Of a stretch of 32,231 bases of DNA, positions 2,728-22,658 are shown in pieces. Both the position numbers and the translations under genes were made by a program. How positions within the stretch are numbered: the stretch's first letter is position 1; every line of letters starts with the position of its first letter. The notes under the pieces are model-generated. The model searched no databases and was not told the DNA's origin. It saw nothing but the letters and a program-made list of their open reading frames with translations. This DNA is from Planctomycetota bacterium (lineage in GTDB: Bacteria; Planctomycetota; Planctomycetia; Pirellulales; Pirellulaceae), in assembly GCA_029979005.1 (NCBI GenBank), contig JAPOIJ010000042.1:1-32231 (forward strand). Reading direction: 5' to 3'.

Positions 2728-4530
2728 ATGTATTTTCAGATTTTCTCTTTGTCTTTTCTTTTTTCGTTCGCTGCGGGGATCTTCAGCCTACCATCTGTTG
2801 GTATGGCAGACTCAGAGGTGAATCTTGAGGATCGACCCAATGTGATTGTTTTCCTTTCGGATGATCAGGGTTACGGTGATTTCAGCTACACTGGAAATCG
2901 AGACTTGGCCACGCCCAACATTGACGGACTGGCACGTGATGGCGCATTTGTTGAGCAGTTTTTTGTCTGTCCAGTCTGTTCTCCTACACGGGCAGAATTT
3001 CTCACCGGCCGATATCATCCTCGCGGGGGTGTTTTTTCAACGGGAGCCGGTGGCGAACGACTGGATCTTGACGAATCGACGATCGCTCAGGCGTTCCAAG
3101 CGGCGGGGTACGCGACCGCAGCCTTTGGGAAATGGCACAACGGAATGCAGGCTCCTTATCATCCAAATTCTCGCGGATTCGACGAGTACTACGGATTCTG
3201 CAGTGGTCACTGGGGAAATTATTTTGATCCGGTTCTCGATCACAACGGACAAATCGTGCGAGGCAAGGGATTTATCATCGATGACTTTACGGATCATGCG
3301 ATTGACTTTATTGAGAACCATCAGAAGAAACCTTTTTTCATCTATCTTCCTTACAACACTCCGCATTCACCCATGCAGGTGCCTGATAAGTACTGGAATA
3401 AATTTAAAGAAAAGCAGCTAACTCAGATGCCAAATTCTGGAGCCGTCAAGAAAGGCAAAGGCATTGATCATGCTCGCGCGGCTTTAGCGATGTGTGAAAA
3501 TATTGATTACAACGTTGGCCGGGTTTTAGAGAAATTGGATGAGCTAAAATTAGCGGATAACACAATTGTTCTGTACTTTTGTGATAATGGTCCTAACGGC
3601 CCGCGTTACAACGCCGGCTTCAAAGGCAGAAAAGGATCCACCGACGAAGGCGGAGTCCGCACGCCTTTATTCGTTCGCTGGCCGGGAGTGATCCCTGCAG
3701 GCAACAAAGTAAATTTGGTAACCGGTGCGATTGATTTGTGGCCCACGTTAACTTCTCTTTGCCGGATTCCTCTCAATGAACAACAAGATCATCCATTAGA
3801 TGGGATTTCGTTTGATCTGGAATTGAAAGGAGCCAAGGTAAAACGAAGTCCGCGATATTTTTTTAATGCATGGAAAGGAAAGGTCAGTGTCAGAACACAA
3901 CAGTACCGGTTGGATAACAAAGGCGTGTTGTATGACATCATGCAAGACCCCGGTCAGCAAACACCCGTTACGGATCGTCCAAAAATAAAACAGGAGTTGC
4001 AGGCCGCAGTGGACAACTGGAAGTCGACAGTGCTGACCGAGTTAGTGGAAGAGCAGCGGGTGTTTCCGGTTGGGCATCCGAGTATGTCAGCAACCCAGTT
4101 GCCAGCGAGAGACGCAGAGGTCACCGGCGCGATTAAGCGATCCAATAAATTTCCTAATTGTTCTTATTTTGGTAACTGGGTGAGTCGAGAGGATACAATT
4201 TCGTGGCCGGTCGAGGTTATGAAATCTGGAAAGTTTCGTGCGGAAGTTTATTACTGCTTAGCGAAAGAAAATGTAGGCGTTGATTTGCAATTGTCGATGG
4301 GCGGTCATCAGATAAATAAAGTGGTCAATGAGGCAAACGACCCCCCTGCCCTCGGTGCTGAAAACGATCGATCAACTCGGGGCGAGTCACTGGTCAAGGA
4401 TTTCAAAGCTCTCGATATGGGAGTGATTGAGTTAGAACAAGGAGTCGGTCGCATTGAGTTACGGACTTTGGAGATGCCCGGTAAGGAATCGATCGAATTC
4501 CGTCTTCTTATGTTGACTCGAATCGAGTGA
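2728..4530 (+). CDS. Type I sulfatase (arylsulfatase family), secreted
   Basis: Hydrolyses sulfate esters, most likely on sulfated polysaccharides or glycans. The 600-residue product starts with a signal peptide ending near GMA (residue 27). Metal ligands Asp45/Asp46 lie in FLSDDQGYGD. The signature C84-S-P-T-R88 contains the Cys that is converted to formylglycine. GKWH near 130 supplies the Lys/His pair, and FCDNG plus GFKGRKGSTDEGG supply the remaining active-site residues. The catalytic part ends around residue 430. The last ~150 residues form an extra beta-rich region (NCSYFGNWVSRED onwards) that resembles the accessory domains seen on planctomycete sulfatases and may bind carbohydrate. 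No sulfatase-maturing enzyme is encoded in this window. The gene is 44 bases after the peptidase gene and 7 bases before the folate enzyme. Confidence 0.93.
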   Translation: MYFQIFSLSFLFSFAAGIFSLPSVGMADSEVNLEDRPNVIVFLSDDQGYGDFSYTGNRDLATPNIDGLARDGAFVEQFFVCPVCSPTRAEFLTGRYHPRGGVFSTGAGGERLDLDESTIAQAFQAAGYATAAFGKWHNGMQAPYHPNSRGFDEYYGFCSGHWGNYFDPVLDHNGQIVRGKGFIIDDFTDHAIDFIENHQKKPFFIYLPYNTPHSPMQVPDKYWNKFKEKQLTQMPNSGAVKKGKGIDHARAALAMCENIDYNVGRVLEKLDELKLADNTIVLYFCDNGPNGPRYNAGFKGRKGSTDEGGVRTPLFVRWPGVIPAGNKVNLVTGAIDLWPTLTSLCRIPLNEQQDHPLDGISFDLELKGAKVKRSPRYFFNAWKGKVSVRTQQYRLDNKGVLYDIMQDPGQQTPVTDRPKIKQELQAAVDNWKSTVLTELVEEQRVFPVGHPSMSATQLPARDAEVTGAIKRSNKFPNCSYFGNWVSREDTISWPVEVMKSGKFRAEVYYCLAKENVGVDLQLSMGGHQINKVVNEANDPPALGAENDRSTRGESLVKDFKALDMGVIELEQGVGRIELRTLEMPGKESIEFRLLMLTRIE

Positions 4531-4537
4531 TTTTAGA

Positions 4538-5152
4538 ATGGAGACCTCCCCACACCTTAAGGAACTTCGGAATTCAATACGTTTCGCTCGGAAATCGGTA
4601 GCCGATCCTCTGCGAAAGCAGTGGAATGAGCAAATTGCCGCTCACCTTTTTGAGACAAATGAATATCAAGCGTCCCATCGCATTGCCGGGTTTCTTGCGT
4701 TTGACGGCGAGGCTGATCCAAAATGCGTGATGAATCAAGCAATTGAAGATGGAAAACAGGTCTTCGTCCCCTTGATGCAAGGGAAGACTGAGCCATTGCT
4801 CTTCATCGAATGGTTCCCGGATATCCAGTTGAGGCTCAATCGATTTGGAATTGAAGAACCGGTGCCGTCTGAAAGCTCGATTGTGCCTGCTACGTCACTT
4901 GAGTTGGTCATTACTCCGCTGGTGGCATTTGACGCAGTGTGCAATCGAATTGGAGTTGGCGGAGGATTCTACGATCGAACGTTTGAGTTTCTGAACCCGG
5001 AAAATGAACATTTCAATCATTCCAGCGGCACTGCGATGATCGGCTTCGCATTCGAGTTACAAAAGCTAGATAGGATCCATGCCAAATCCTGGGACGTCGG
5101 TTTAGCAGGTGTGGCTACCGAGGCGGGGGTTTATCGTCCCCGCGTCGTTTGA
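4538..5152 (+). CDS. 5-formyltetrahydrofolate cyclo-ligase
   Basis: Cytosolic ATP-dependent enzyme that converts 5-formyl-THF to 5,10-methenyl-THF in one-carbon metabolism. The 204-residue length fits the family. Conserved features are an N-terminal Lys/Arg-rich helix (KELRNSIRFARK), the FGIEEP substrate-pocket motif near residue 103, and the hallmark TPLVAFD followed by RIGVGGGFYDR (about 127-147), where the family usually has GxGGGYYDR. The ATG is 7 bases after the sulfatase stop, so translation is probably coupled. A housekeeping folate gene at the end of a secreted-hydrolase run is odd and probably reflects chance operon building. A hairpin with a T-run follows at 5201-5231. Confidence 0.9.
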   Translation: METSPHLKELRNSIRFARKSVADPLRKQWNEQIAAHLFETNEYQASHRIAGFLAFDGEADPKCVMNQAIEDGKQVFVPLMQGKTEPLLFIEWFPDIQLRLNRFGIEEPVPSESSIVPATSLELVITPLVAFDAVCNRIGVGGGFYDRTFEFLNPENEHFNHSSGTAMIGFAFELQKLDRIHAKSWDVGLAGVATEAGVYRPRVV

Positions 5153-5200
5153 ATCGAGTGGCTAACTCGAATTGTCTTACGAGGGAGCGACCAAACTGTC

Positions 5201-5231
5201 CGTGCAATTACTAGCGAAATTGCTCGTTTTT
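5201..5231 (+). terminator. Rho-independent terminator after the cyclo-ligase gene
   Basis: Arms CGTGCAATT (5201-5209) and AATTGCTCG (5218-5226) pair with one T/T mismatch around an 8-base loop and are followed by five Ts (5227-5231). It lies 48 bases past the cyclo-ligase stop and touches the stop codon of the convergent gene, so it would end + strand transcription between the two units. Confidence 0.5.
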
Positions 5232-5631
5232 AATTGGGTTGAATTCGCTCGCCCAGTTTTCCTTGAATGTTCGAAGCTAGTTTTTGAATTTCTAGCAATA
5301 ACTGTTTTTCGGACTTGTTGCCGATCGAATATTTATCGAGCATTGAAGCCATCCAGTCCCCTTCTTCTACATCGACCTCGCCGGGTGAATTCATGTCAAA
5401 GATGATCAATCGAGAAATCGATGTAACAAAAAAGGCAGACCATTCAGGGCAGTTCTCATCGTTCTGATTGAGCGAATGATTGACTCTCAGCAATTGTTCC
5501 ACTTCGGTTTTATCAATCACCCAATCTTGGCGAACGAAATCTTCCAGATACTTTACCTGCTCGGCGTTAATGGAAGAGTTGTCAAAGATCTCTTTTAATA
5601 CGTCTCGAACGGGATGGTTCGCTGAACCCAT
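5230..5631 (-). CDS. Uncharacterised small acidic helical protein
   Basis: I do not recognise a named family with certainty. From the ATG at 5631 it encodes about 133 residues, mostly helical, acidic and soluble, with no signal peptide or membrane segment. It contains DWVIDKTEVEQLLRVN, then a conserved-looking NCPEWSAFFVTSI block, then EVDVEEGDWMASML and EKQLLLEIQ. The repeated pattern of D-x-x-I/V-x-x-x-E before a W or L helix resembles TerB-like or EF-hand-like helical proteins of unknown role. The 5631 start is chosen because AGGGA precedes it by 7 bases; an upstream in-frame ATG at 5685 has no ribosome binding site and would add 18 residues. It lies downstream of pdxA on the same strand with a 143-base gap. 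Confidence 0.6.
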   Translation of the reverse strand: MGSANHPVRDVLKEIFDNSSINAEQVKYLEDFVRQDWVIDKTEVEQLLRVNHSLNQNDENCPEWSAFFVTSISRLIIFDMNSPGEVDVEEGDWMASMLDKYSIGNKSEKQLLLEIQKLASNIQGKLGERIQPN

Positions 5632-5638
5632 GATTGGT

Positions 5639-5643
5639 TCCCT
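5639..5643 (-). promoter_or_regulatory. Ribosome binding site AGGGA deciding the start of the small acidic protein
   Basis: On the minus strand AGGGA lies 7 bases before the ATG at 5631, while the upstream ATG at 5685 has nothing comparable. This favours the shorter protein. Confidence 0.45.
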
Positions 5644-5774
5644 AAAAATTGCTAATGTTGGACTTAAAAATTCAGTTGTCACCATGTTAACACTTTACTC
5701 GCAAATTGTTGAGAAGGTAGTTTGAAAAGTCTTATGGTGATGTATTCGTTTCCGCCTCTGAATTATTGGTATTT

Positions 5775-6767
5775 TTAGTTTGATAATTTTACGGCGAGGT
5801 TTACTGCTGATATTAAGCTTGAAATATCGGCCTTTCCTTGCCAAGCGATATCGAGGGCGGTTCCATGGTCGACGCTGGTGCGAATGAGGGGAAGGCCAAG
5901 AGTAATATTGACACCCGTGTCAAAGTTTAAGGCCTTGAAGGGTATTAATCCCTGATCGTGATACATGCAGATGTAACCATCCGTCTCTTTGCGTTTCCAC
6001 GGGAGGAACGCGGTGTCTGGAGGAATAGGGCCGGCAATATGAACGCCTTCCTCAGTTGCGCGGGTAACTGCGGGAAGAATGATATTTTCTTCTTCGTTCG
6101 CCCCGAACAGACCCCCTTCGCCAGCGTGCGGATTTAGCCCCAACGCGATCAATTGTGGCCGGCGGCCGAGTATCCGCGCCAGCGCCTCGTCAGTCAGTGA
6201 AATTACCTCATGAATTCTGTCGGTGGTCATCAATTCTGGAACTTCATGATAGCCCACGTGAGTCGTTACGAGACTGCAGCTGAAAGTGGGGGCTGTCATC
6301 ATCATGCAGAAACGATCGGATCTTGCCCGGTCGGCAAATAGTTCGGTGTGGCCAGGGTACTCAATTCCCGCCATTCGCCAGGCCTCTTTGTGGATTGGCC
6401 CTGTGACGACTGCGTCCGTGTCTCCGGAAATTGCCGATGCAATGGCGGATTCGATAAATTGAAAAGAGGCTTTACCTGTGTGGGCACTGATTTGCCCGGC
6501 GACTAAGTCGGCTCCCACGTCACTGGCGAGGTCGATGAACGTTGCGGGAGCATCCGTTTGCTGACCAGCGAGCTTGCCCTGAACAACGGCGCATTCGGGA
6601 AAGCTAATCCCCATATGTGCTGCTGTTTTTTGGATGGCGGTTAGGTCGCCAAAAACAACGGGGTGGCATTCTCTAAGTACAGACGTTGTCGACAAGAGCT
6701 GTAGGCAAAGTTCTGGTCCAACGCCGGCAGGGTCGCCCATCGTGATCGCAATGCGGGGGGATTTCAA
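5775..6767 (-). CDS. pdxA: 4-hydroxythreonine-4-phosphate dehydrogenase PdxA
   Basis: NAD-dependent dehydrogenase that oxidises 4-phosphohydroxy-L-threonine in the DXP-dependent pathway to pyridoxal 5'-phosphate; acts in the cytosol as a dimer with a divalent metal in each active site. The 330-residue length fits the family. Visible motifs are ITMGDPAGVGPE at the N-terminus, PGHTELFADR (138-147), LNPHAGEGG (211-219), MYHDQGL (268-274) and the ending RTSVDHGTALDIAW. The three metal-binding His residues expected for the family match His170, His214 and His270. The start is a TTG: the frame upstream closes with a stop before any ATG. The gene diverges from the ABC importer genes. PdxA paralogues can also act in sugar-acid breakdown, so a catabolic role beside the importer cannot be excluded. 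Confidence 0.93.
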   Translation of the reverse strand: MKSPRIAITMGDPAGVGPELCLQLLSTTSVLRECHPVVFGDLTAIQKTAAHMGISFPECAVVQGKLAGQQTDAPATFIDLASDVGADLVAGQISAHTGKASFQFIESAIASAISGDTDAVVTGPIHKEAWRMAGIEYPGHTELFADRARSDRFCMMMTAPTFSCSLVTTHVGYHEVPELMTTDRIHEVISLTDEALARILGRRPQLIALGLNPHAGEGGLFGANEEENIILPAVTRATEEGVHIAGPIPPDTAFLPWKRKETDGYICMYHDQGLIPFKALNFDTGVNITLGLPLIRTSVDHGTALDIAWQGKADISSLISAVNLAVKLSN

Positions 6768-10651: not shown

Positions 10652-13600
10652 TCAATTAGTTTTTTTCTTCTTAAGCGTGGATAAGTATTCCACCAAATCA
10701 ACCAATTCATCCGTGGTTAACTCTTTGTGGAGGTCAGCAGGCATCAGCGAAATTTGTTGTCGTTTCCGGGCGTCAACTTCATCCACTGGAATGTTGTGTT
10801 GGATCCCTTTGTCATCTTTGATCTGAATTTCCAAATCGGTTTCTCCGAGGAGAACTCCCGTAATACTGCGACCGTCTGACTTTTGAATCATCCAGTTCTC
10901 GTAGTTGTGGCTAATTCCAGCCGATGGGAACAAGATAGATTCATACAGGGCAAGTTTGGATAATTTATTTCCAATCTCAGAAAGATCGGGGCCGACCTCA
11001 ATTCCTTTGCCGTTAACGATATGGCATTTCGCGCAGGTACCGGCATTCTCAAACACAAGTTGGCCTCTTGCGGCATCTCCCTTACGTTTGCTTAGCTGAT
11101 CCATCGAGGGAAGCGGTTGGCTGTTTTTAGTGGCTGCAATTGGAAACAGTTCATTGGCCTTTTGCCGGATGTCGTTCCAGCGAGCACTGTGAAGTGTGGC
11201 TTGAATGGCAGGAAGGGTTCCCGGGTCAATCTTCTCTTTTTTCGTTATCCAGGCGAGTACTGTTTGCGCCCCGGATTGACTTTCCCCCATCTTCCTAATC
11301 GCATAATTTCTCAATGACAAATCAAAGAATCGCTGTTTTGCAATTCCCGTAAGAATGGTTTCTCCTGCTTTGGTTCTTGAGTTGGCCAGCGCATCACAGA
11401 GGCTTTGCTGTGTTTCAGGTGGTGAGTGGAGGATTAGATCTTTAACACGTGTATCTTGTTTCTTATCCAGCAATAATTTCATGGCATCGGCCGCCAATTG
11501 AGGATTGGAGGAATCGGCACTTATTTTTAATACATCTGCATAAAACTGTTTAACTGAAAAACGCCTAATGAGAGAGATGAATTCGGGCGTTCCTCGTTTT
11601 TGCTCAATGAATTGATTTAATTTTTTCACTTGGTTCTCGTCAAGGGAATCGAGGGTTAATCGATTCGCTGACTCGATCAAAACAACGTTTGATTTTTCAT
11701 TTTCGTAGTCGGCATTACCGAACGCGATTTCGGCAAGAACACTTGATTTGTCATCCGAATTCAAAAAGTCAATTGCTCGGAAATAACGTTTGGCTTGATC
11801 GGCAGAGGTAGACGGGTGTTTAATAATCTCCCCGAGTTCTGCCATAGTGGTTTTGCCGCGGGATCGCCACAACACATCTCTCATTTCTTTGGAAGCCGTT
11901 GGGTCTCCTGATGAATTGGCTCGCCATTTGGTGAGGCAGACATCCCAGTGGTTTTCTGCGGCAATCCCGAGCGCTTCCAGGAACCACCTGTCGGGAGAGC
12001 GGTACATTGATGCGATGGTTGCCCAGGTTTCAACTAATCGTTCGGCTTCTTGAGGCGACGGATCGAGCATCCATTGACGCATTCCAATTAGGACTGCTCG
12101 CATCAATGCAGGGCTGGCATTTTTGAAGTTAATGTCGTCACAAATATCGGAAAAGGCTATCTGACCTTGCAGTAATACCGCCAAGCGGATCGCTGTAATT
12201 TGCAAGTCGACATTAGAGTCGCTTAACCCCGATTCAATGTATTTGAGTTTTTGTGGTTTAGGAATGTTGAGTTTTCCCAGGGCCCACAAAGCACGGGCGC
12301 GGTAGCGAGGATTGTCTTGACCCCATAAAGTTTCAAGGGCAGCAACTGACCGGATTCCAAAATCCTGTAATGCTTTCCAAGCGAGGTAGCGGGTCGCTAG
12401 GTTTGGACTGCACAAAGCTTGAGCGGATGATTCTGGAGTGGAGAAATCGACCGCAGGCGACTTGTACTTCGCTCCAGCGTTCTTCGCGGTTACGCGGAAT
12501 AAGCGACCTCGCTGCACATCTTGCATGCGATGCCCTCCCACTCCCGGATCGTACCAGTCGGCAACGATTAAGGAGCCGTCAGGAGCCACGCAAACATCCG
12601 ATGGACGGAACCAGCGATTTTTTTCGGCGCCGTCAATCATATTGACGATGGAAGCGGAGTAGCCTGCGCCGGAAACTTCGACCGGATATGCGCGAACAAT
12701 GTTAGGCCCAGCGTCGCAGTGGATCATTTGGTTTTGAAAAACCTGAGGAAGAGAGTCGCCTTCGTAAACGCAAATCCCCGTGGGAGAGCCAGCGCCGGTG
12801 ATCAATAGATTGGGGACGATCCCCGGATCGTTTTGATACCAGTGCCGTGTTGGAACGTCCGGGTGCATGCCGGTTCTTTGCGTTCGCCAGCCAGCTCCAG
12901 TTTTTTGATCCGTGTAGCCATAGTTTCCAAATGGCATCACAAAGTTAATTCGTGTGGCGCGGTTGCCGTCATCGTCGTTGTCGGATTGCCAGAGTGACCC
13001 AAAAGAGTCGATGCAGACTTCCCAGTTGTTGCGGAAATTCCAGGCCAGTGTTTCAAAATCCGAGCCGTCGAGATTGCACCGAAAAATCATTCCCTGATTG
13101 TAAGGGCGGCTGTTGGCAATCACTGGATTGCCTGCTTTGTCGATGATTTGCTTTCCGTCTTTGTCCTTAATCTGACGACCACTGTTGCCAAAATTAAAAT
13201 ACAGTTTCCCGTCGGGGCCGAATACAAATGCATGAATTCCATGATCGTGTTGTGTTCCTCCGATCCCCGTGAAGAGTACCTCTTTACGATCGGCTTTCGA
13301 ATCACCATCAGAATCGATTAGGTAAAAAACCGAGTCGTTCGCGGATACCAAAACGCGATCTCCAAGAATACATATGCCATGAACCGAATCAATATCGCGT
13401 CCCTGATAGAACACTGTTTGGCTATCCGCTTTTGCGTCGCCATCGGTGTCTTCTAAGATGAGAATCCGGTCACCCTCCTCACGGGGTTTGGAGTCGCCAT
13501 TTCGAAATTGCCGATAATTAATAACTTCGCAAACCCAAACACGACCGAGGTGGTCAATGTCGATGTTGGTAGGATTCGCCATCATTGGTTCCGAGGCAAA

Positions 13601-13780
13601 CAGTTCGACATCCAGTTCCGGATGAATAGCAAATTGTCCAATGGCGTTTTCAGATTCATGAACTTTGTCGGTCTGTCCCATAACCCAGTTCGCGTTTCCA
13701 GCGGTAATGATTAGCATTAATCCGAGCGCGAGTTGATTGATCGAAAACGGCAGACGGCAGTGAGCAAGGTTTAGATTCAT
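10652..13780 (-). CDS. PVC-type secreted dehydrogenase-like protein with HEAT-like region and C-terminal heme c domain
   Basis: A predicted periplasmic oxidoreductase of about 1042 residues. After a signal peptide (LGLMLIITAGNA) comes a sorbosone/glucose-dehydrogenase-like beta-propeller typical of planctomycete proteins (FAIHPELDVELFASEPMMANP, then GRVWVCEVINY and DGDRKAD-like calcium loops). A helical HEAT-like middle section spans about 450-850. The C-terminus has a cytochrome c motif C916-AKC-H920 with a probable Met ligand in SLMPADL (Met1013). This matches the planctomycete families known as membrane-bound dehydrogenase N-terminal (TIGR02604) and CxxCH (TIGR02603). The substrate is unknown; sugars or sugar acids are likely. 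The ATG at 13780 leads into the signal peptide. A GTG at 13915 would add 45 residues but lies inside the preceding terminator-like hairpin. Confidence 0.88.
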   Translation of the reverse strand: MNLNLAHCRLPFSINQLALGLMLIITAGNANWVMGQTDKVHESENAIGQFAIHPELDVELFASEPMMANPTNIDIDHLGRVWVCEVINYRQFRNGDSKPREEGDRILILEDTDGDAKADSQTVFYQGRDIDSVHGICILGDRVLVSANDSVFYLIDSDGDSKADRKEVLFTGIGGTQHDHGIHAFVFGPDGKLYFNFGNSGRQIKDKDGKQIIDKAGNPVIANSRPYNQGMIFRCNLDGSDFETLAWNFRNNWEVCIDSFGSLWQSDNDDDGNRATRINFVMPFGNYGYTDQKTGAGWRTQRTGMHPDVPTRHWYQNDPGIVPNLLITGAGSPTGICVYEGDSLPQVFQNQMIHCDAGPNIVRAYPVEVSGAGYSASIVNMIDGAEKNRWFRPSDVCVAPDGSLIVADWYDPGVGGHRMQDVQRGRLFRVTAKNAGAKYKSPAVDFSTPESSAQALCSPNLATRYLAWKALQDFGIRSVAALETLWGQDNPRYRARALWALGKLNIPKPQKLKYIESGLSDSNVDLQITAIRLAVLLQGQIAFSDICDDINFKNASPALMRAVLIGMRQWMLDPSPQEAERLVETWATIASMYRSPDRWFLEALGIAAENHWDVCLTKWRANSSGDPTASKEMRDVLWRSRGKTTMAELGEIIKHPSTSADQAKRYFRAIDFLNSDDKSSVLAEIAFGNADYENEKSNVVLIESANRLTLDSLDENQVKKLNQFIEQKRGTPEFISLIRRFSVKQFYADVLKISADSSNPQLAADAMKLLLDKKQDTRVKDLILHSPPETQQSLCDALANSRTKAGETILTGIAKQRFFDLSLRNYAIRKMGESQSGAQTVLAWITKKEKIDPGTLPAIQATLHSARWNDIRQKANELFPIAATKNSQPLPSMDQLSKRKGDAARGQLVFENAGTCAKCHIVNGKGIEVGPDLSEIGNKLSKLALYESILFPSAGISHNYENWMIQKSDGRSITGVLLGETDLEIQIKDDKGIQHNIPVDEVDARKRQQISLMPADLHKELTTDELVDLVEYLSTLKKKKTN

Positions 13781-13839
13781 GGAAAACCAATCAACAATTA
13801 AAGGGTTAGGCTGTTGATGAATTTTAACAAATTCAAAGG

Positions 13840-13856
13840 AACGGTGGGGAACCGTT
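13840..13856 (-). repeat. Inverted repeat upstream of the cytochrome gene
   Basis: AACGGT and ACCGTT flank a 5-base spacer, 60 bases before the preferred start of the heme protein. It lacks a T-run, so it is more likely an operator or a mRNA hairpin than a terminator. Confidence 0.3.
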
Positions 13857-13897
13857 TGTTGCATTGCCTCGCAAAAAAATGCCATGCGATGCGAGCG

Positions 13898-13926
13898 AAA
13901 AACAAGCACATTCACTTGCTTGTCTG
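13898..13926 (-). terminator. Terminator-like hairpin spanning the stop codon of the toroid protein gene
   Basis: On the minus strand ACAAGCA (13923-13917) and TGCTTGT (13908-13902) pair around an 8-base loop containing the TGA stop, with possible G-U and A-U extension, followed by TTTT. It would end the four-gene ExbB/ExbD unit and separate it from the cytochrome gene. Confidence 0.55.
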
Positions 13927-16900
13927 GTAAAGAGGTAGCATTCGATGACGAACCTCAAGTGAAAGTAAATTCATGGTTGTGACATACAGTCGCCCGCCGA
14001 ATCCGCCCCAGCGATCGGGAACAGGACGGTAAGGGTTCCAGCTGCCAGCGAGATCTCCGGATTTTTCCTGAGATCGAATGAGCATGGGCCGCAGGAGATT
14101 ATTCCATTGGTTCCAACGCTGCCCGTCGACGAACTTTAAAACCTGGGTGGCGTAATACCAGTAATAAGTATCTCTGACCTGAGGACTCGTGTCTCCTGGA
14201 AGCTGGGATTGCAAAAGATAATCTGCACCTGCCAATAACCGCGGATCGTTTTTATCCCAGCCGGTATAGATCCGCATTAGTAAACCAACCGATGTCATCG
14301 AAGGCGTTGGCTTACGTCCCTGTATTCGAGAAATACCTTTTGAATTAATGGCAAATGGATCATACCGATAGATCGACGGATTATCAGGTGCAGCAGCCAC
14401 TTCAAGCCAATCGTCAATCGATCGAAAGGTTTCGGGATCCACATCCAGTCCGGCCAGTCGTCCACTTTGAAGCGCCATCATCATCCATCCCGAAACGGAG
14501 GTGTCGGAGGTGAGGTTTCCCGGTTGGTCAAAGTACCGCCAGCCTCCGCGGCGTGGATCCTGGGTTGCCTGAATGTAGTCCAGTGCTTTTTGAACTGGAA
14601 TTTTCAGCCGTTCATCCTGTGTCATTCCGTAGGCTTCCGTAAGCGCGAGGGTAGCAATCCCGTGACTATACAGCCGGCACGCATTGTTTGATTTCAAATT
14701 GCTCGGGACGTATAGCCCGCCATTTTCGGATTGGTTATCAAGTAGCCACTGAATAGCTCGATCAATCTGAGTCGCGTACTTAAATTCTCGATGATTAAAA
14801 CCAGCGCCTTGAAATGCGAGCACGGCCAGTCCAGTTGCCGCGGTATCGCTTTCCAGTTGCATGATTTTTTGACGCGAGCCAGAATCAAATCCACCGAGCG
14901 TCCAGTTTCCCTGTTGCGTCTGGTATCGGGCTAAGAATTCAAGTCCAAGCTGAATCGAAGCCTCCGTCGTTGGTTCGCCAGAGCTGGACATGCCGTTGGG
15001 TGTCCGGTTTTGAAAAGCCTCCTGGGCGAGAACTGCATCGGGATTGAGGGCAGGTGTGCCGCCGGCAGTTTTACTTCGAAAGCGGGTTTGCGGTGTTGGC
15101 TGTAATTGCGGGCTGTCGGTTGAGGCTGGGCGTTCCATGATGCCTGCCGAATCAGCAGGTCGAAGTCCAAGTCCAGCCGATCCTTCGGGGGCTTTAACTT
15201 CAAGGGCAAGGCTTGAATTATCTGAAACTTCGGATCGCTCAATTTTTGCCATGGCATCGCCACCGGCGTCCGAATTGGTTTGAGATTTTTTGCCTCCGTT
15301 TTGTGAATTTGCCGAATCAAATTTCACGGTTGCATTAATCGAAGGCGCGACTGGCCCTGTGCGTGACCCCGAGTTTTGCTTCGTTCTCACGGCGGATGCG
15401 ACGGCGCTGTTCGACGCTGGAGTTTTGCCACGCTTTCCAGATTCGCTCATGCGAGGCAGAGCGGACGAGATGGAATTCACCGAGGCCGCTGGTGATGTTA
15501 AGGCAATTTCAGTCGAGGCATTCAATCCGCCGCTGCTACTGCCCGCTGTTTGTTTTTCAACTCGGGTTTTCTGAGCATCGAGGGAATCAGTGCTGCCTTT
15601 CGTTGTCGTTGGGTTTGCTGATTTTGTTTGCGAGGTTCCCTCGCCTGCCTCTGCTAATGAACGAATGGTCGGCGCCTGAGCGAGTCGAGTCCGCTGGTTG
15701 CCCCGTTGGTTTTTGAGTTGTTCGTCGTCATCACCGGGACTTGCTTCCTCGGTGTTTTGATTGGCTTTTTGGCGCGAGTCAGATAACTGATTTGAAATAT
15801 TGGTGGTGCCCGCGTCAGCGATTTCACCCGAATCGGCTGCGGCCCACTTTTCTGAACCGGAGGTTGATTCCGCGACCGATCGCGAGTCAACGTTCAATTC
15901 AGCGGAATTGTCCAGAGCTTCAGTTGAAGGAGGTGCAGGCAGTGCGTTAGAGGGAGCTGAGACGGCGGCGACCGTGTTTGCTACGAGCGATGGTTGAGAG
16001 TTGGAGCGTTGTTTTGACCGGCGGGTAGATTCTGGATTAAGTTCTGAAATTTCGGTTTGGCCACCGCCGGACCGGCGCTCAGATTTTCGTTCAGAAACTA
16101 CTTTGGTAGGCCCCAGATCAATCATGCTGGTGCCTTTGGCTGCAGATTGACTGTCGCGGGATTTCGTAGCTGCTGCATCAACCGAAGCGGCCGAAGATTC
16201 GGTGGTTTTATCACTCATGGTTTTTCCACCCGCCAGCTTTGCAGGAGCCGTAGTGTCTGCCATTAAAATATTTGTAGGTTGGGCATTTTTGCCAGAGGAT
16301 CGTCGTTTGGTTGATTTTTGCGACGATGTCAACATTTCCGGACTGTCGGCTCGACTCAAATTGCGGGTTCGCTTCGCCGAATCAGAGGCCTGCGCTGCAG
16401 GACTGGTTTCACCACCATCGAATCGTTCCAGGTTTTTTGTTTTTCCCGAACCGGCAATTCCGGCCGAGTCGCGGGTAATCGAAATTGTCTTTGAATTTTG
16501 CTCCCGCGAGTTTTGAGTTGACTCCGGAGAGCGCACAGGTTTTTCAACTGCCAGGGTTGTCGAGGCAATACTGGATTGAACGACCGATCGTTTCGGGGTT
16601 GAAAGTTGTGAAGTTGGTTCGGAAATACTGGGCTCTTTAGTAGGGCTGCTTTTGCGATTTACAGATTTTGCAATTTGAGGTTGACGACTGAGTGTGGGTG
16701 AGGGTTGCTGGTTAAGCGAGGGCCGGCTTGCTCGATCTCGCGTTGGGCGTCGAGTCACTTGAGCAGCCGATTGAGAAGGTTGATTGGGGGACGGCTGGAC
16801 GGCGGTTGCCGATTCAATTTTTTGAGGGGTCGCAGAAGGCTTGGTAAGAATAGGCACCCGCGGATCGCTTCTTCTGACATTGGCACTAGCTGCTGATGCA

Positions 16901-17757
16901 GCGGGTTCACTTAAGGCCTGATTGAGCCGGGCGTTTTGAGCGCGGCTTGCCGACGGTGTGATGGGAGTGAGCTGGCTTTCAGAGAGAGCCTTTTGTAATT
17001 TCGGCTGGACTGGTGGGGTCGAATTTTCTGGCTGACGCTGGGTGACGTCGGCGCGAGCAGAATCGCTCGCGGTAGTTGGTTGAGAGGCGGCCGGTTGAGA
17101 GATTTTTTGGTTTTCGAGAGTCGATTTTCCCGAGACCGTTGGTTGGGCGGTCGATATTTTTGTTTGGCGTTTTAGTTGTGATAATTCTGGACTTTGCCTG
17201 GGGATGGTCTGTGATTTTATTTTTTGTGGTGTGATTTGCGGGTTTGAGTCCGGTTGATTTTCGATGACCGGCACTGGTTGAGTTTCTGTTACAGTCGCAG
17301 TTTCTATTTCTCGATTGATGTCGACAACGGGTTCAGGGGTTGGCTGGGCATTTGGTTCTTCGAAAACGAACGCTGCTTTCCGGTCGCTTATTTCGATAGT
17401 CCGGACAGGTCGCTGGACCACCTTTTGAGAAGGCTCTTCGAAACGATTTTCAAAAATATTCGTGACAGCGGCGGCGAAGATGATCACTAGGTGTATGGCA
17501 AGGCTGGCGATAATTGCCAACTGAAGCGAGCGTCGGACTCGATAGTTTTTGATACTAAATAGAAAGAAAAGAGCCATGATCGCAAACACAGGCAGGCCCA
17601 TCAGTCCGGCCCACATCCAGGGTCCCTGAAGAAGCGTTGCGACGGCGCCTGAAGCGATCCCGACCAACACCGTTAACGCAACCAGAATCGGCCAGAATTG
17701 CTGGTCGAAGGATGGTTGCCGTTGCGGCGTTATTTTTTGGACCGTTCGTCGCTTCAC
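13912..17757 (-). CDS. Giant membrane-anchored protein: TonB-like N-terminus, long disordered linker, C-terminal squalene-cyclase-like toroid
   Basis: A protein of 1281 residues with an unusual layout. Three hydrophobic helices lie at about 21-42, 50-68 and 78-99; the third (SLAIHLVIIFAA, His89) resembles a TonB anchor helix. Residues ~105-930 are a low-complexity Ser/Thr/Gln/Ala/Pro-rich stretch, starting with proline-rich segments like the TonB spacer. Residues ~933-1281 form a prenyltransferase/squalene-oxidase-repeat alpha/alpha-toroid, with repeats such as QTQQGNW, QSENGG, QDPRRGGWRYF, DTSVSGW and RWGGFGG. I see no squalene-cyclase DxDD acid motif, so it is probably a binding or scaffold domain and not a hopanoid enzyme. 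The start is GTG. The gene follows ExbD by 47 bases, so energy coupling through ExbB/ExbD is a reasonable inference. No TonB C-terminal domain is present. Confidence 0.85.
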   Translation of the reverse strand: MKRRTVQKITPQRQPSFDQQFWPILVALTVLVGIASGAVATLLQGPWMWAGLMGLPVFAIMALFFLFSIKNYRVRRSLQLAIIASLAIHLVIIFAAAVTNIFENRFEEPSQKVVQRPVRTIEISDRKAAFVFEEPNAQPTPEPVVDINREIETATVTETQPVPVIENQPDSNPQITPQKIKSQTIPRQSPELSQLKRQTKISTAQPTVSGKSTLENQKISQPAASQPTTASDSARADVTQRQPENSTPPVQPKLQKALSESQLTPITPSASRAQNARLNQALSEPAASAASANVRRSDPRVPILTKPSATPQKIESATAVQPSPNQPSQSAAQVTRRPTRDRASRPSLNQQPSPTLSRQPQIAKSVNRKSSPTKEPSISEPTSQLSTPKRSVVQSSIASTTLAVEKPVRSPESTQNSREQNSKTISITRDSAGIAGSGKTKNLERFDGGETSPAAQASDSAKRTRNLSRADSPEMLTSSQKSTKRRSSGKNAQPTNILMADTTAPAKLAGGKTMSDKTTESSAASVDAAATKSRDSQSAAKGTSMIDLGPTKVVSERKSERRSGGGQTEISELNPESTRRSKQRSNSQPSLVANTVAAVSAPSNALPAPPSTEALDNSAELNVDSRSVAESTSGSEKWAAADSGEIADAGTTNISNQLSDSRQKANQNTEEASPGDDDEQLKNQRGNQRTRLAQAPTIRSLAEAGEGTSQTKSANPTTTKGSTDSLDAQKTRVEKQTAGSSSGGLNASTEIALTSPAASVNSISSALPRMSESGKRGKTPASNSAVASAVRTKQNSGSRTGPVAPSINATVKFDSANSQNGGKKSQTNSDAGGDAMAKIERSEVSDNSSLALEVKAPEGSAGLGLRPADSAGIMERPASTDSPQLQPTPQTRFRSKTAGGTPALNPDAVLAQEAFQNRTPNGMSSSGEPTTEASIQLGLEFLARYQTQQGNWTLGGFDSGSRQKIMQLESDTAATGLAVLAFQGAGFNHREFKYATQIDRAIQWLLDNQSENGGLYVPSNLKSNNACRLYSHGIATLALTEAYGMTQDERLKIPVQKALDYIQATQDPRRGGWRYFDQPGNLTSDTSVSGWMMMALQSGRLAGLDVDPETFRSIDDWLEVAAAPDNPSIYRYDPFAINSKGISRIQGRKPTPSMTSVGLLMRIYTGWDKNDPRLLAGADYLLQSQLPGDTSPQVRDTYYWYYATQVLKFVDGQRWNQWNNLLRPMLIRSQEKSGDLAGSWNPYRPVPDRWGGFGGRLYVTTMNLLSLEVRHRMLPLYQTSK

Positions 17758-17804: not shown

Positions 17805-18218
17805 TTAATTTTCATCAATCGTCGCCGTGAAATCATGAATGCCGACTTTTTTACAAATACCAATCGCAATGGCGACAGGTTCCCAGTCTGATTTTCTGTC
17901 CGCGCGGATGACAACTGTTTGCGTGAGCGGGTTATTAGCTTTTGCCCGGCTAAGAATCTGTTCAACTTGTTCCGGTTGTCGGAATGCGCCATCAATGTAA
18001 TAGCGGCCTTGTTCGTCGACGTTGATTACCATTTCGGCCGGTTGAGCCGAGGCCGGTAATGCTTCAGAAACGCTCGGAAGATTGAGGTCGAGTTCGCGTT
18101 CTTCCTCAGAAAAACGCGATGACACCAAAAAGAAAATCAGCAACAGAAATACAACATCGATCAATGGCGTGATGCTGAGAGAGCCAACTGCGGATGTCCG
18201 TTTTATTTTTACTGCCAT
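17805..18218 (-). CDS. ExbD/TolR-family biopolymer transport protein
   Basis: Inner-membrane partner of the ExbB/TolQ-like protein in a proton-driven motor. The 137-residue length fits the family. A short basic cytoplasmic N-terminus (KIKRTSAVGSLSITPLIDVVF) leads into one transmembrane helix (about 17-35) carrying Asp21, the residue that takes up protons in ExbD and TolR. The periplasmic domain follows, with LDLNLPSVSEA, MVINVDEQGRYYIDG and the strand VVIRADRKSDWEPVAIAIGICKKVGIHDF, which are typical. It lies 63 bases after the ExbB-like gene and 47 bases before the TonB-like toroid gene. Whether it works in TonB-type uptake or Tol-type envelope maintenance cannot be told from the sequence. 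Confidence 0.94.
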   Translation of the reverse strand: MAVKIKRTSAVGSLSITPLIDVVFLLLIFFLVSSRFSEEERELDLNLPSVSEALPASAQPAEMVINVDEQGRYYIDGAFRQPEQVEQILSRAKANNPLTQTVVIRADRKSDWEPVAIAIGICKKVGIHDFTATIDEN

Positions 18219-18281: not shown

Positions 18282-19187
18282 TCATTCGGTCGTTTTTCGA
18301 CCGGTGGATTTGTTTGGCGGAACGGGTTCGTCGAATCCTTGCGTGTATCTCACCTGCCCTTCGTATCGTTCGAACTGAGGTAGAAGGTTGTAGACCATTT
18401 CTTCAATTTGATTCATTAACTGGATGATTCGATTTTCGAAGTGATGCGACAGAATGGCTGCAGGAATGGCAATCACGAGGCCGACCATTGTCGTTACTAA
18501 CGCGACATAAATTCCATTGGCAAGCGCGACGCCTCGGTTTTGACCGGGATTGATTTCGGCCAGTTGGGTAGTGTCGTAGAAAGCCTGAGTGATGCCCCAA
18601 ACCGTCCCCAGTAATCCAATCAGAGGCGCAATGGCTGCAGCAAGAGCAAGCCATGAAGTCATTTGGCTTAGTCGCGTTGCTTCTCTTTGGCTGGATTCAG
18701 AAACCGCGTTTTCCATTTCCATCTGCGGTCGCCCGACCTTTACCAGCATCGAGCGAATGACATAAGAGGCTGAGGACGGGTACTGTTGACAGGCCTGGTA
18801 AACACCTCGCGGATCAAGTCCGTTTGGTGATTGACTCAAGTTAGAAATTTGATTGATTAAAGCGTGCGGAAAGATCTTCTCTCGACGCAGTGCCATAAAT
18901 CTCTCGATAGCAATGGTGACAACGACTAGCGAAAGCGCTGCAAGTGGAAGCATGAACCAGCCACCCTGGGTGAGCAACGAGAGAAAATTAATTCCTGTTT
19001 TTGCGGCTTGCTGCGATTCCGCGGATGCGGGGGGAGCGGTCTGCGGCGGGGTAAACTCAGGTGCATTCGGAGGATTCACCACCGTTGCCCTAACGGCGGA
19101 TTCGCTGAGAACAATAATTGAAATCATCAGAAATCCGAAAACGATGGCAGAGGTCAATCGTTGATTCAGTCGACAAAAAAGCGTCAT
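18282..19187 (-). CDS. MotA/TolQ/ExbB-family proton channel protein
   Basis: Inner-membrane proton channel subunit, 301 residues. An extra N-terminal hydrophobic segment (about 13-34) followed by a Pro-rich stretch (38-55) looks like a signal peptide with a periplasmic extension, as found in longer ExbB variants. The core helices are at about 76-96 (GGWFMLPLAALSLVVV), 178-201 (with the conserved PLIGLLGTVWGI, Thr195 in the channel) and 225-247 (GIYVALVTTMVGLVIAIPA). The C-terminal cytoplasmic helix ENRIIQLMNQIEEMV follows. The minus-strand GGAG five bases before the ATG supports this start. The gene lies between the TPR gene (72 bases upstream) and exbD-like gene, making a TPR-ExbB-ExbD-toroid operon. 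Confidence 0.94.
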   Translation of the reverse strand: MTLFCRLNQRLTSAIVFGFLMISIIVLSESAVRATVVNPPNAPEFTPPQTAPPASAESQQAAKTGINFLSLLTQGGWFMLPLAALSLVVVTIAIERFMALRREKIFPHALINQISNLSQSPNGLDPRGVYQACQQYPSSASYVIRSMLVKVGRPQMEMENAVSESSQREATRLSQMTSWLALAAAIAPLIGLLGTVWGITQAFYDTTQLAEINPGQNRGVALANGIYVALVTTMVGLVIAIPAAILSHHFENRIIQLMNQIEEMVYNLLPQFERYEGQVRYTQGFDEPVPPNKSTGRKTTE

Positions 19188-19259: not shown

Positions 19260-22200
19260 TTACTGGAATTTCATTTTTTTTAATTGTTCCAGTTGTCGAC
19301 GAGCTTCTGGAGCAAGTTTGTCGTCGCTGTAGTTTTTCAAGAGGTATTCGAATTGTTTTATAGCGGCAGCGGTCAGTATCGCTTGCTGGTCCCGGGTGGC
19401 ATTTTTGATTTGCACAGACGAACATCGAGCCGCTTCGTAGATCGCATAGGCCTGCCACGGTCGCACTTCCGGTTCCGCTTGAAGACCATTGAATCCGTAA
19501 TAAACCTTTTTGAATTCTTTGATCGCGTCTGCAAATTGTTTATTTCCAAATAGCGAGTCGCCAACCATGCACCTGGCGCGGGCGCCAGTTTTGCCTTCGT
19601 TGTTTGCGGCGAGGTTGAAGTACTTGAGTGCGGTTTTGGAGTCTCTTAATCCGCTATGAGCCATGCCGATTTCCAGCATGGCATCTTCTTGCATGGGTAC
19701 TCCAGCCGGTGACTTATTCGGATCAAGGGTTTCGAACGGTTCAAGTAATGCGAGCGTTTCTTGATATTGCTTTATCTGATTAGCACTCTGGGCGGCATGG
19801 ACTCGCGCCAACCATTGAATCTTAGGCTCAGTTAAGGTTGATTTAGAAACAGCTGGTAATGCAGCCTGATACGCTTTCAGTGCCGAATCATAATCTTTTA
19901 AACGGTAGAGTGATTCAGCCATCATGAAGAGTCCATCGGCAGCCAAGTCACCTTCCGGGAATCGCTTGATTTGATTCGAAAACTGATCACCTGCTTCTTT
20001 GAATTTGTTTTGTTTGTAATGGGACCAAGCCAGTTTGTAGGCTGCTTTTTCAAGAATTTCGTTCTCAACTTGTGAGTCGAGGCAGAGTTGGTAGGCGGCG
20101 ATTGCATCGTCATATTTTTTTTGACTGTAAAATTCTGAGCCGATATGAAAGTTGGACTCGGGAGCAAGTGAACTGTCAGGAAATTTCGAAGCGAGTGTGC
20201 GAAAGTTATCCATCGCAAGTTTTTCTTGATTGTTTGAGCGAAGCCCCCAGGCTAATTCATAAAGGTAGCGATCCATTTGTTTGGAAGTGTTGAACTCATT
20301 AACGAGCGTCTGGAAAGTCTTAGTAACATCGGTCCATTGTTGGGCATCAATATGTGCAAGGCCAAGATCGTAAAGCGCGTTTTCTTTTCTGGCGGCATCT
20401 GGTTCCGACGCGAGGAACTCGTTGAGGTCATCGATCGCAGCTTTCGGGTTGCCAAGTTTTCGTTGAGCGCTGGCGCGTCCGGTTCTTGCTAGATTAGCCA
20501 GGTCGTTGTCGGGGAATTGCGAGATCAATTTTGTGAATGTTTTCTCGGCCGCCTGATTTTGACTGAGCTGGAGTTGGCAGTAAGCGGCGTTGTAAAGAGA
20601 GAAAGGAGTGAATTTCGTCGGTGATTCGAGCATATTGATCACTTGGAAATGCTCGAGCGCACTTTTGTACTTTTCCTGCTCATAATCGAATTCGCCAAGG
20701 CGATAATGAAGTTCGGTGGCAAGCGGTGAGTTGGAGTAGGTCTTGAAAAAAGTATCGGCGGTTGCGGTCGCTTCGGCGTTCTTTTTCTGAGCAAGCTGAG
20801 ACCGGCAAAGGGTCAGAAGGGTTTCCGCCGTTCGTTTCCACTGCTTATTCGCTGCTAAAGATTTGGCTAAGGATTTTTCAGCTTTGGCGAATTGGCTCTG
20901 CTTGAATTGGCTCGACCCAATCCAGAACTCAACCTCTGACAATTGACTGGCATCGATTTCATTGGATGCGGTGAGTGGTTGTAGTTTTGAGATGGCCTCT
21001 GAGTAGTTTTCGCTAATGTAATCAGCAACAGCAGAGCGAATGATCCAGCGATTTACTTTCGAGTTTCCGTTGAACTGGGCGATTAGTTGATCATATGTTT
21101 TCTTGGCTTCCCCTGGTTCGTCGTTCAATAACTGTGCCTCCGCCTTGATCTCCACGGTGTCAGGTAGCAGGTCGTTAGCGGGGAAGGTGGACTCAAAAGC
21201 GTTTGCTGTTTTTATCGCTGTTTCAAAGTCACCGGTGTCAAGCGAAGTGAATGCGGAGCTGTGCAGCGCGAGCGGCGCTAATTCACTGGTTTGATAAGAC
21301 GTTGCAATATTGTCAAACATCGCGATGGACGATTTGCGTTTGTCCGGGATCGCAAAAGCAGCGTCTGCTTGATCCATCAAGAGGTTGATCCATCCGATTG
21401 GTTTTTTCTCGTTAGACTTAACCTTGCTGATTTGTTTTTTGGCAATCGCAAAGGCTTTGGAGGGTTCATCAGATTTTAGATAGATACCGGCCAGCCAATG
21501 CGCAGCCAATGTTCCATTGACGGGGTCGACCTTGATCGCTCGCTCTAATAATGGAATTGCTTTTTCAGGTTGTTTCGCATCGAGGTAATTACGTCCTGCG
21601 TTGGCGAGGGCTTCGTTAGCTAACGGAGAATCGGGAGTATTTGCTATTTCTTCGAACAAAATTGCAGCACGTTGGAATTTCTCTAGCTCACGGGAACATA
21701 CGGCAAGTTCGTATTTGGCTTCGTCGATGATGGTTTCAGAAGGTGCGTCTGAGTTTGGTTTGTCTGGGCTGACAATTGATTCAAGGATGGATTCCGCCTG
21801 TTTGAGTTTTTCAGTAGCGGCTTGCGGGTTGTTTTGAGCTGAATCTTTTTGAGCGAGTTTGACTAAGTTGGATGCGGTTCTCGACTGAATTTCAGTTAGG
21901 AGAGGACTGTTCTGTTCTGCGGCAACGATGCTGGCTTTTTGAAAAAAATCAGAAGCTTGTTCATACTGCTGTAATTGATCGTGAAGATCTGCCACGGCGA
22001 ATAGGGATTCGAGTTGAAACGCAGGCTCTGGAAGATTGAGTATTTTGGAGTAGGCTGCGAGTGCTTTCTTACGATCTCCCAACGCTTCGAATGCGTTGCC
22101 TTGAAAGAAAAAGGCTTGGTCGGCATTTTCGAATTGCGGGTTCTTTTCAATTAATTCGGAAAATGTTTTTACTGCTTCGTTATATAGTTTTCTGGATTCC

Positions 22201-22658
22201 TTTGATTTGGATTCGTTCGCTAAATTCTGTCCCGCCTGGAATTGTGTGAAACCAAGGTAGAGCATCGCTAAGGGTTTCTTGGTGGTTTCTGCATCGGTTA
22301 GTTTTTCGAGTGAGGCTCGAAATTGAGGGATCGCTTGAGTTGGTAACTCAAGTTTCAAATAACAAACCCCGGCATTGTAATGAGCTTTGCCGATCAGTTT
22401 TGAAGTTGGGTGTTCTTTGATTAACGTTTCCCATTGTTCAGCTGCGAATTCGAAGTCATCGCCGTTTTGAGCTGAGGATGCTGTTTGGGCAATTTTCATT
22501 GCAGCGGATTCGTCCTGGAAGGGAGAAGCATTGAGTCGCGCCAGCGACAGTTGAGTCATGCTTAACCCAACAACGATGAGTAAGATTGCTCTTACAGGGC
22601 GCCAAAGAGATTTAGGTTGCCAAGGCATGCTGATTTTGTAGAAGTATTCGTTGTTCAT
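19260..22658 (-). CDS. Very long exported TPR protein, first gene of the ExbB/ExbD unit
   Basis: A protein of 1132 residues made almost wholly of tetratricopeptide-like helix pairs after an N-terminal signal peptide (hydrophobic core about 24-38, ending LSLA). Repeated patterns include AHYNAGVCYLKLELPTQAI, ALANAGRNYLDAKQPEKAI, YKSALEHF, YDDAIAAYQLCL and DGLFMMAESLYRLKDYDSAL, spaced about 34-38 residues. Such arrays act as protein-binding scaffolds. Export plus linkage to ExbB/ExbD recalls the periplasmic TPR protein YbgF/CpoB that accompanies the Tol system, but this one is far longer and the link is inferred. An in-frame ATG at 22628 is an alternative start; neither has a clear ribosome binding site. 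Upstream lies the 0.7 kb gene-free region holding its promoter. Confidence 0.9.
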   Translation of the reverse strand: MNNEYFYKISMPWQPKSLWRPVRAILLIVVGLSMTQLSLARLNASPFQDESAAMKIAQTASSAQNGDDFEFAAEQWETLIKEHPTSKLIGKAHYNAGVCYLKLELPTQAIPQFRASLEKLTDAETTKKPLAMLYLGFTQFQAGQNLANESKSKESRKLYNEAVKTFSELIEKNPQFENADQAFFFQGNAFEALGDRKKALAAYSKILNLPEPAFQLESLFAVADLHDQLQQYEQASDFFQKASIVAAEQNSPLLTEIQSRTASNLVKLAQKDSAQNNPQAATEKLKQAESILESIVSPDKPNSDAPSETIIDEAKYELAVCSRELEKFQRAAILFEEIANTPDSPLANEALANAGRNYLDAKQPEKAIPLLERAIKVDPVNGTLAAHWLAGIYLKSDEPSKAFAIAKKQISKVKSNEKKPIGWINLLMDQADAAFAIPDKRKSSIAMFDNIATSYQTSELAPLALHSSAFTSLDTGDFETAIKTANAFESTFPANDLLPDTVEIKAEAQLLNDEPGEAKKTYDQLIAQFNGNSKVNRWIIRSAVADYISENYSEAISKLQPLTASNEIDASQLSEVEFWIGSSQFKQSQFAKAEKSLAKSLAANKQWKRTAETLLTLCRSQLAQKKNAEATATADTFFKTYSNSPLATELHYRLGEFDYEQEKYKSALEHFQVINMLESPTKFTPFSLYNAAYCQLQLSQNQAAEKTFTKLISQFPDNDLANLARTGRASAQRKLGNPKAAIDDLNEFLASEPDAARKENALYDLGLAHIDAQQWTDVTKTFQTLVNEFNTSKQMDRYLYELAWGLRSNNQEKLAMDNFRTLASKFPDSSLAPESNFHIGSEFYSQKKYDDAIAAYQLCLDSQVENEILEKAAYKLAWSHYKQNKFKEAGDQFSNQIKRFPEGDLAADGLFMMAESLYRLKDYDSALKAYQAALPAVSKSTLTEPKIQWLARVHAAQSANQIKQYQETLALLEPFETLDPNKSPAGVPMQEDAMLEIGMAHSGLRDSKTALKYFNLAANNEGKTGARARCMVGDSLFGNKQFADAIKEFKKVYYGFNGLQAEPEVRPWQAYAIYEAARCSSVQIKNATRDQQAILTAAAIKQFEYLLKNYSDDKLAPEARRQLEQLKKMKFQ

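Follow-up and report, generated by a model that had tools for sequence, protein, structure and literature searches.

The window, that is, the whole 32,231-nucleotide stretch of contig JAPOIJ010000042.1 (assembly GCA_029979005.1, a planctomycete of the family Pirellulaceae), carries on its minus strand a gene (13912..17757; 1281 aa, GTG start) whose product combines an N-terminal membrane anchor, a long linker and a C-terminal toroid domain, and which we propose to be a force transducer. The position of the start codon is common to close relatives. The toroid itself has its nearest named relatives in Mariniblastus metagenome-assembled genomes (MAGs; 99 and 98 per cent). Plasmid-borne relatives were considered and rejected, as the search gave no match. 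Upstream on the same strand lie, in this order, genes for a tetratricopeptide repeat (TPR) protein (1132 aa), ExbB/TolQ and ExbD/TolR, the last being separated from the toroid gene by 47 nt. An earlier note on this DNA had already placed the gene directly after ExbB and ExbD, giving no strand.

Both putative motor proteins retain conserved motifs. ExbD/TolR (17805..18218, minus strand; 137 aa; PF02472 at 6.1e-22) has the conserved TPLID motif with the proton-site Asp, and ExbB/TolQ (18282..19187, minus strand; 301 aa; PF01618 at 4.6e-25) has conserved GTVWG, ALVTT and AIP motifs, including the channel Thr and Pro motifs. The TPR protein (19260..22658, minus strand) contains ten tol_pal_ybgF-type stretches (237.9 bits versus the NCBIfam cut-off of 90.1). 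In these repeats and in its place next to TolQ/TolR-like genes it resembles CpoB/YbgF, from which it differs by its length of 1132 aa with many repeats and by its occurrence in a genome without a TolB_N match. The earlier note had missed both this gene (19260-22658) as a member of the cluster and the conserved linker islands described below. According to part of the text of PMC2754498, the exbB (RB12053) and exbD (RB12055) genes of Rhodopirellula baltica are induced at high salinity; a further literature look-up on whether the two belong to a toroid cluster added nothing.

We use the label class A, coined in this analysis, for operonic, long-linker orthologues of the toroid gene. The orthologue line was read from scores (above about 330 bits versus at most 256 in the family), with 28 class-A rows supported by the tree. 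An orthologue is present in 54 of the 60 Pirellulaceae genomes, each representing a different genus. Before counting, we excluded truncated rows, namely six of the 54 orthologues, L197, L019, L059 and the second toroid open reading frames (ORFs) of L136 and L149; also excluded were an ORF of L100 that is toroid-like at 46.8 bits and L104, a placeholder. The compared rows are related throughout, so neither these counts nor those below are independent: among the 48 Pirellulaceae orthologues with a complete start, ExbD lies upstream in 45 and ExbB in 42, and the TPR gene does so in 35 of the 39 having at least 5.5 kb of upstream sequence (three of the nine rows set aside for a shorter upstream sequence, L069, L073 and L165, also show it). 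Elsewhere in the order, ExbD accompanies all class-A genes with a complete start (7/7), and locus L096, from outside the order, has all four cluster genes. In 25 hand-picked class-A loci the TPR gene recurs 23 times, ExbB 23 times and ExbD 18 times by BLAST clustering (24 by profile); the next most recurrent neighbour families recur 9, 7 and 7 times. The link to ExbB/ExbD, for which the earlier note had suggested such a survey of gene order, is thus borne out among the orthologues.

The anchor consists of three predicted transmembrane (TM) helices, as the earlier note had described: residues 24-42 (17632..17688), 51-69 (17551..17607) and 80-98 (17464..17520), all called by a hydropathy window, which in some class-A members gives two helices instead of three. 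The third helix, SLAIHLVIIFAAAVTN, includes Ser85-x3-His89 (codons within 17491-17505), that is, the first, motor-docking half of the SHLS motif of TonB and TolA. According to PMC12215075, Ser16/His20 of E. coli TonB and Ser18/His22 of TolA are contacts with the ExbB/TolQ motor in cryo-EM, and Ton proteins show weaker conservation in the latter half of SHLS. Among 17 aligned sequences including that of the window, His89 is present in all and Ser85 in 16. A larger set of 55 anchors of class A, 48 of them belonging to Pirellulaceae genera and seven to the rest of the order, has H (47) or N (8) at position 89 and S (40), C (9), G (5) or A (1) at position 85. Swayne and Postle are said to have reported in 2011 that Asn fully substitutes for His20 of E. 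coli TonB. Among class-A orthologues without upstream motor genes, L158 and L073 keep the His, which is replaced by Asn in L162. By the positive-inside rule, the positively charged residues of the N-terminus and of the loop joining helix 2 to helix 3 would place both the linker and the toroid in the periplasm.

The linker (residues 150-929; 14971..17310, minus strand) is rich in Ser, Ala, Thr, Pro and Gln and nearly free of aromatic residues, with four in residues 150-905. The distance from the third TM helix to the toroid is 833 aa, in agreement with the roughly 830 residues estimated earlier, and in the 48 Pirellulaceae orthologues the linker ranges from 426 to 1834 aa (median 919). Tandem repeats were considered as its basis and rejected, as none were found. 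Three islands are conserved above the surrounding linker: island 1 (residues 424-480; 16318..16488) and island 2 (residues 512-575; 16033..16224) in long-linker orthologues, and island 3 (residues 848-925; 14983..15216) directly before the toroid, the last being weaker in some short-linker orthologues. Profiles of islands 1 and 2 match further long-linker orthologues, at 7 and 8 loci, respectively, outside the training set. The island 3 profile matches short-linker L064 and L068 at E <0.01 and L066, L067 and L070 weakly, with no match in short-linker L065 and L072. Outside toroid proteins, the best E value of the three profiles is 0.22. In a second model, with a predicted local distance difference test score (pLDDT) of <50 for residues 1-90 and 69.4 overall, island 3 is unstructured and not packed against the toroid. 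The linker is more than a mere spacer, and its islands are perhaps docking peptides for the TPR protein or ExbD.

The C-terminal domain (residues 930-1281; 13915..14970, minus strand) is squalene-cyclase/prenyltransferase-like. Pfam SQHop_cyclase_C matches it at E 1.2e-5, with 24.9 bits falling just under the cut-off of 26.1. A 20-row toroid profile compared with PDB sequences matches squalene-hopene cyclase at 2.8e-7 over the whole sequence (the best single stretch reaching just 17.4 bits) and also cellobiose 2-epimerase at 4.1e-6. The best of five AlphaFold2 models based on 20 rows (mean pLDDT 80.4, predicted template modelling score 0.84; pLDDT 58.1-69.4 for the other four) has 12 longer and two short helices. 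The alpha/alpha helical model, the QW-type repeats (for example, QTQQGNW at residue 946) and the weak but consistent profile similarity suggest a resemblance to squalene-hopene cyclase and other prenyltransferase-like toroids. The defining catalytic motif of squalene-hopene cyclase is DxDD. In line with the earlier note, which saw no DxDD, no conserved cyclase acid motif is present: D-x-D-D occurs in 2 of the 20 toroid rows, only in a variable loop. A true cyclase was rejected for this lack of conservation; in addition, the cyclase equivalog TIGR01507 scores 15.5 bits on the window protein versus a cut-off of 431.1, and the protein has one toroid domain of 352 aa, periplasmic by its predicted topology, compared with the 631-aa chains of squalene-hopene cyclase. 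In two orthologues the chain continues past the toroid, for about 350 residues in L013 (total length 1632 aa) and about 65 in L014.

An alignment of 120 toroid sequences, of which 74 score as class A and 46 do not and some derive from identical or almost identical genomes, shows conservation of at least 90 per cent at 35 polar or aromatic positions, among which Tyr, Trp, Arg, Asp and His are abundant. Within -4 to +12 of helix starts, 18 of them fall at helices 2, 4, 6, 8, 10 and 12 and three at the other six helices. In the model we take the even-numbered helices to be the inner ones, in which case the 18 conserved residues would surround one opening of the toroid. Such conserved positions at alternate helices, along with the profile matches to squalene-hopene cyclase and cellobiose 2-epimerase, would also suit a membrane-tethered periplasmic enzyme acting on an envelope glycan or lipid, with the anchor and ExbB/ExbD placing or gating it rather than pulling. 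We consider this unlikely, as the domain carries no known catalytic signature (DxDD is not conserved and the cyclase model scores far below its cut-off), and an enzyme would leave the H/N constraint in the third TM helix and the conserved motor genes unexplained.

A carrier derived from squalene-hopene cyclase, passing a hopanoid or isoprenoid across the envelope with energy from ExbB/ExbD, might be argued for on the grounds that squalene-hopene cyclases are the closest solved sequence relatives. Elsewhere the genome also encodes a squalene-cyclase-like protein of 609 aa that carries a DADD motif (L151, contig C47, 1522-3351), so lipids of the hopanoid or isoprenoid type may exist in this organism. 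A profile comparison between the toroid and this protein aligned 76 columns only. The abundance of Tyr, Trp, Arg, Asp and His at the conserved positions speaks against a lipid carrier, which we regard as quite improbable. The ORF adjoining the cyclase-like gene resembles, by eye only, uroporphyrinogen decarboxylase.

Toroid relatives reach well beyond class A. They occur in all 118 sampled genomes of the class and in 82 of the 89 of a phylum sample that includes five genomes from the class; in three of the phylum genomes (G234, G213 and G269) there are 23-24 toroid matches each, some close together on a contig. Most of the sampled toroid proteins outside class A have one TM helix and a linker of about 100-160 aa. 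Ser-x3-His is found in a predicted TM helix of 35 of the 42 members with a complete start: 4/4 in the genome of the window (a fifth protein, cut by a contig end, was left out), 15/18 in a class-level set, which includes two Pirellulaceae paralogues (L114 and L115), and 16/20 in a phylum set. The 18 and 20 loci were hand-picked from listed high-scoring matches, one per genome in the phylum set, and genomes with weak toroid matches only fall outside them. Three more such proteins from the order have the motif in two cases. A tree of 72 toroids unites class A in a single clade (support 99/92) and places three proteins encoded directly after ExbD and having two TM helices (L057, L107 and L112) in a separate one (100/99). 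The background frequency of Ser-x3-His in the first 150 aa, at the hydropathy threshold used for toroid proteins (1.6), is 9/228 ORFs; at a stricter threshold of 2.0, the motif occurs in an N-terminal hydrophobic helix of 1/111 control ORFs of the fetched loci.

It might be asked whether the His of the third helix and the motor neighbours are mere coincidence or history, the protein being a plain membrane-anchored binding protein. Some orthologues do have no local ExbB/ExbD, and the same is true of most sampled wider relatives. Such a coincidence is nevertheless highly unlikely in our view: position 89 is H or N in 55 of 55 anchors, Ser-x3-His is seen in 35/42 toroid proteins versus 9/228 in the background, and the cluster is conserved across genera, even if related rows make these counts interdependent. 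The earlier note had raised the question of whether homologues are usually found without ExbB/ExbD. This is not so for the orthologues; it is so for the sampled wider family, in which many members keep the Ser-x3-His anchor.

The anchor and the ExbB/ExbD neighbours would also fit an ordinary TonB serving TonB-dependent receptors, with an odd C-terminal domain. The sequence of the protein gives no Pfam or NCBIfam match to a TonB_C or TolA C-terminal domain at E up to 1, consistent with the earlier proposal that the toroid replaces the C-terminal domain of TonB. Searches with TonB_C, Plug and TolB_N, each of which gave matches in the control genomes of E. coli, Caulobacter and Bacteroides, showed TonB_C in 0 of 19 genomes of the genus and in 6 of 30 relatives overall, Plug in 1/19 and 9/30 (8 over the cut-off), and TolB_N in 0/19 and 0/30. 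The genome of the window (92.5 per cent complete) has neither a Plug nor a TonB_C match. All six TonB_C-bearing genomes among the 30 relatives also have Plug, which indicates that canonical TonB tracks receptors. An ordinary TonB is hence the least probable explanation, one to which we give almost no weight.

The same genome contains eight MotA/ExbB matches. Among these is a cluster in which a TPR gene, ExbB and two ExbD genes adjoin a gene (L126, contig C173, 9822-10817) for a von Willebrand factor A (vWA) transducer whose anchor reads SLLLH; the window protein itself has no vWA match. Another locus (L127, contig C96, 7611-9488 with 4502-6447) encodes a toroid-like protein next to ExbB and two ExbD genes. 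Force transducers with vWA heads were published for PVC bacteria in 2025; as described in PMC12204202, they have an SHLS-type anchor and are encoded next to TPR, tolQ-like and tolR-like genes. The L126 protein belongs to this published kind and has the same type of anchor as the window protein, which favours the transducer reading of the latter. They share with the window protein a TM helix with the SHLS-type Ser/His, a disordered linker, a foreign globular C-terminal domain and the adjoining genes. The differences lie in the head (a vWA fold versus a toroid), in the tolR-like genes (a pair versus one ExbD), in domain II (about 100 residues versus 426-1834 in class A) and in the extra TM helices of the toroid protein. 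The words 'toroid', 'squalene' and 'prenyl' do not occur in the available text of PMC12204202, and no toroid or squalene-cyclase-like transducer was found among the matches listed in the open PMC literature. The proposed toroid transducer would be a new form beside the vWA transducers. With TonB and TolA it has in common the Ser-x3-His motor helix, the periplasmic linker and the ExbB/ExbD or TolQ/TolR partners; it differs in lacking their C-terminal domain, in its two or three predicted TM helices and very long linker, and in its setting, TolB_N being unmatched in all 30 relatives and Plug in its own genome. By analogy, it would work like TonB/TolA without being a member of either group by its C-terminal domain.

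Taken together, we consider it probable that the gene encodes a force transducer driven by the proton motive force, with a ligand-binding toroid in place of the TonB/TolA C-terminal domain. From the anchor motif, domain order, gene cluster, conservation and the lack of TonB_C and TolB matches in the sampled genus, all read from sequences, we infer how docking, movement, ligand binding and contact of the TPR protein with the linker might be arranged. The toroid protein would be the transducer arm of a trans-envelope machine, its third TM helix using Ser85/His89 to dock on the ExbB pentamer in the manner of TonB and TolA, with the hairpin of the first two helices a likely addition of this clade. 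The neighbouring ExbB/ExbD (TolQ/TolR-like) pair would supply the force, the long flexible linker would span the periplasm, and the toroid would be the working end instead of a C-terminal domain that adds a beta-strand. The conserved residues of the toroid would hold its ligand, probably an envelope component such as a glycan or lipid. A partner in the periplasm is likely to be the TPR protein, which perhaps recognises the conserved linker islands. The earlier interpretation is in this way supported in part, namely for the anchor, the ExbB/ExbD link, the replacement of the C-terminal domain by the toroid and the lack of the acid motif.

A number of observations pull in the opposite direction. 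Within class A, eight of the 55 anchors have Asn and 15 are without the Ser; the second half of SHLS (x6-Leu-x3-Ser) is not found in the window protein, which has Ala96 and Asn100 there; and the Trp through which ExbB/TolQ contacts the His is not clearly matched in this ExbB, the position four residues past the conserved Ser86 being Val in 24 of 30 ExbB sequences. No orthologue was seen in six of the 60 Pirellulaceae genera, L073, L158 and L162 have neither ExbB nor ExbD upstream, and L071, L153 and L186 are without ExbB alone. Outside class A, Ser-x3-His is missing from seven of the 42 toroid proteins (4/20 in the phylum sample) and from the L127 toroid-like protein despite its place beside ExbB/ExbD, and most relatives have no local ExbB/ExbD just upstream in the fetched stretch. 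The conserved toroid residues would fit an enzyme as well. Finally, many of the genomes are incomplete MAGs, which makes the absences soft.

Downstream of the toroid gene, the ORF at 10652-13915 encodes a PVC-type heme-binding protein (NCBIfam TIGR02604). A match to such a cytochrome gene lies close to the toroid gene in L007-L012, L019 and L024, with a weaker one in L074 and none in L013-L018, L020-L023 and L025, and we rejected this gene as a part of the system. The 4-bp overlap of this ORF with the toroid gene is probably an artefact of ORF calling, because the 1041-aa ORFs in L008, L009, L011 and L012 begin about 130-145 nt past the toroid gene; the true start probably lies some 130 nt inside the called ORF.

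A broader view can be put forward only tentatively, and we regard it as possible rather than likely. A planctomycete family of motor-driven arms with enzyme-like toroid heads would do the work of Ton and Tol, with the toroid conveying the proton motive force to a ligand or reaction of the envelope, and not to receptors or Pal. In this lineage, and perhaps phylum-wide, each genome would have several such arms, some with their motor genes adjacent and many driven in trans; Pirellulales would have its equivalent of Tol-Pal in the operonic form with the long linker. According to PMC8871954 and PMC5147048, respectively, Planctomycetes have no FtsZ and their cytoplasmic membranes are mostly invaginated. 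The finding matters for how planctomycete cells, with no TolB match found in the order sample and no TonB_C in the genus, energise and hold their outer membrane: a conserved motor bearing a new head offers a candidate that is concrete and can be tested. It would also provide a role for a very large family that Pfam marks here mainly as squalene-cyclase-like, and would widen the range of heads driven by proton motors, beside the vWA heads of 2025.

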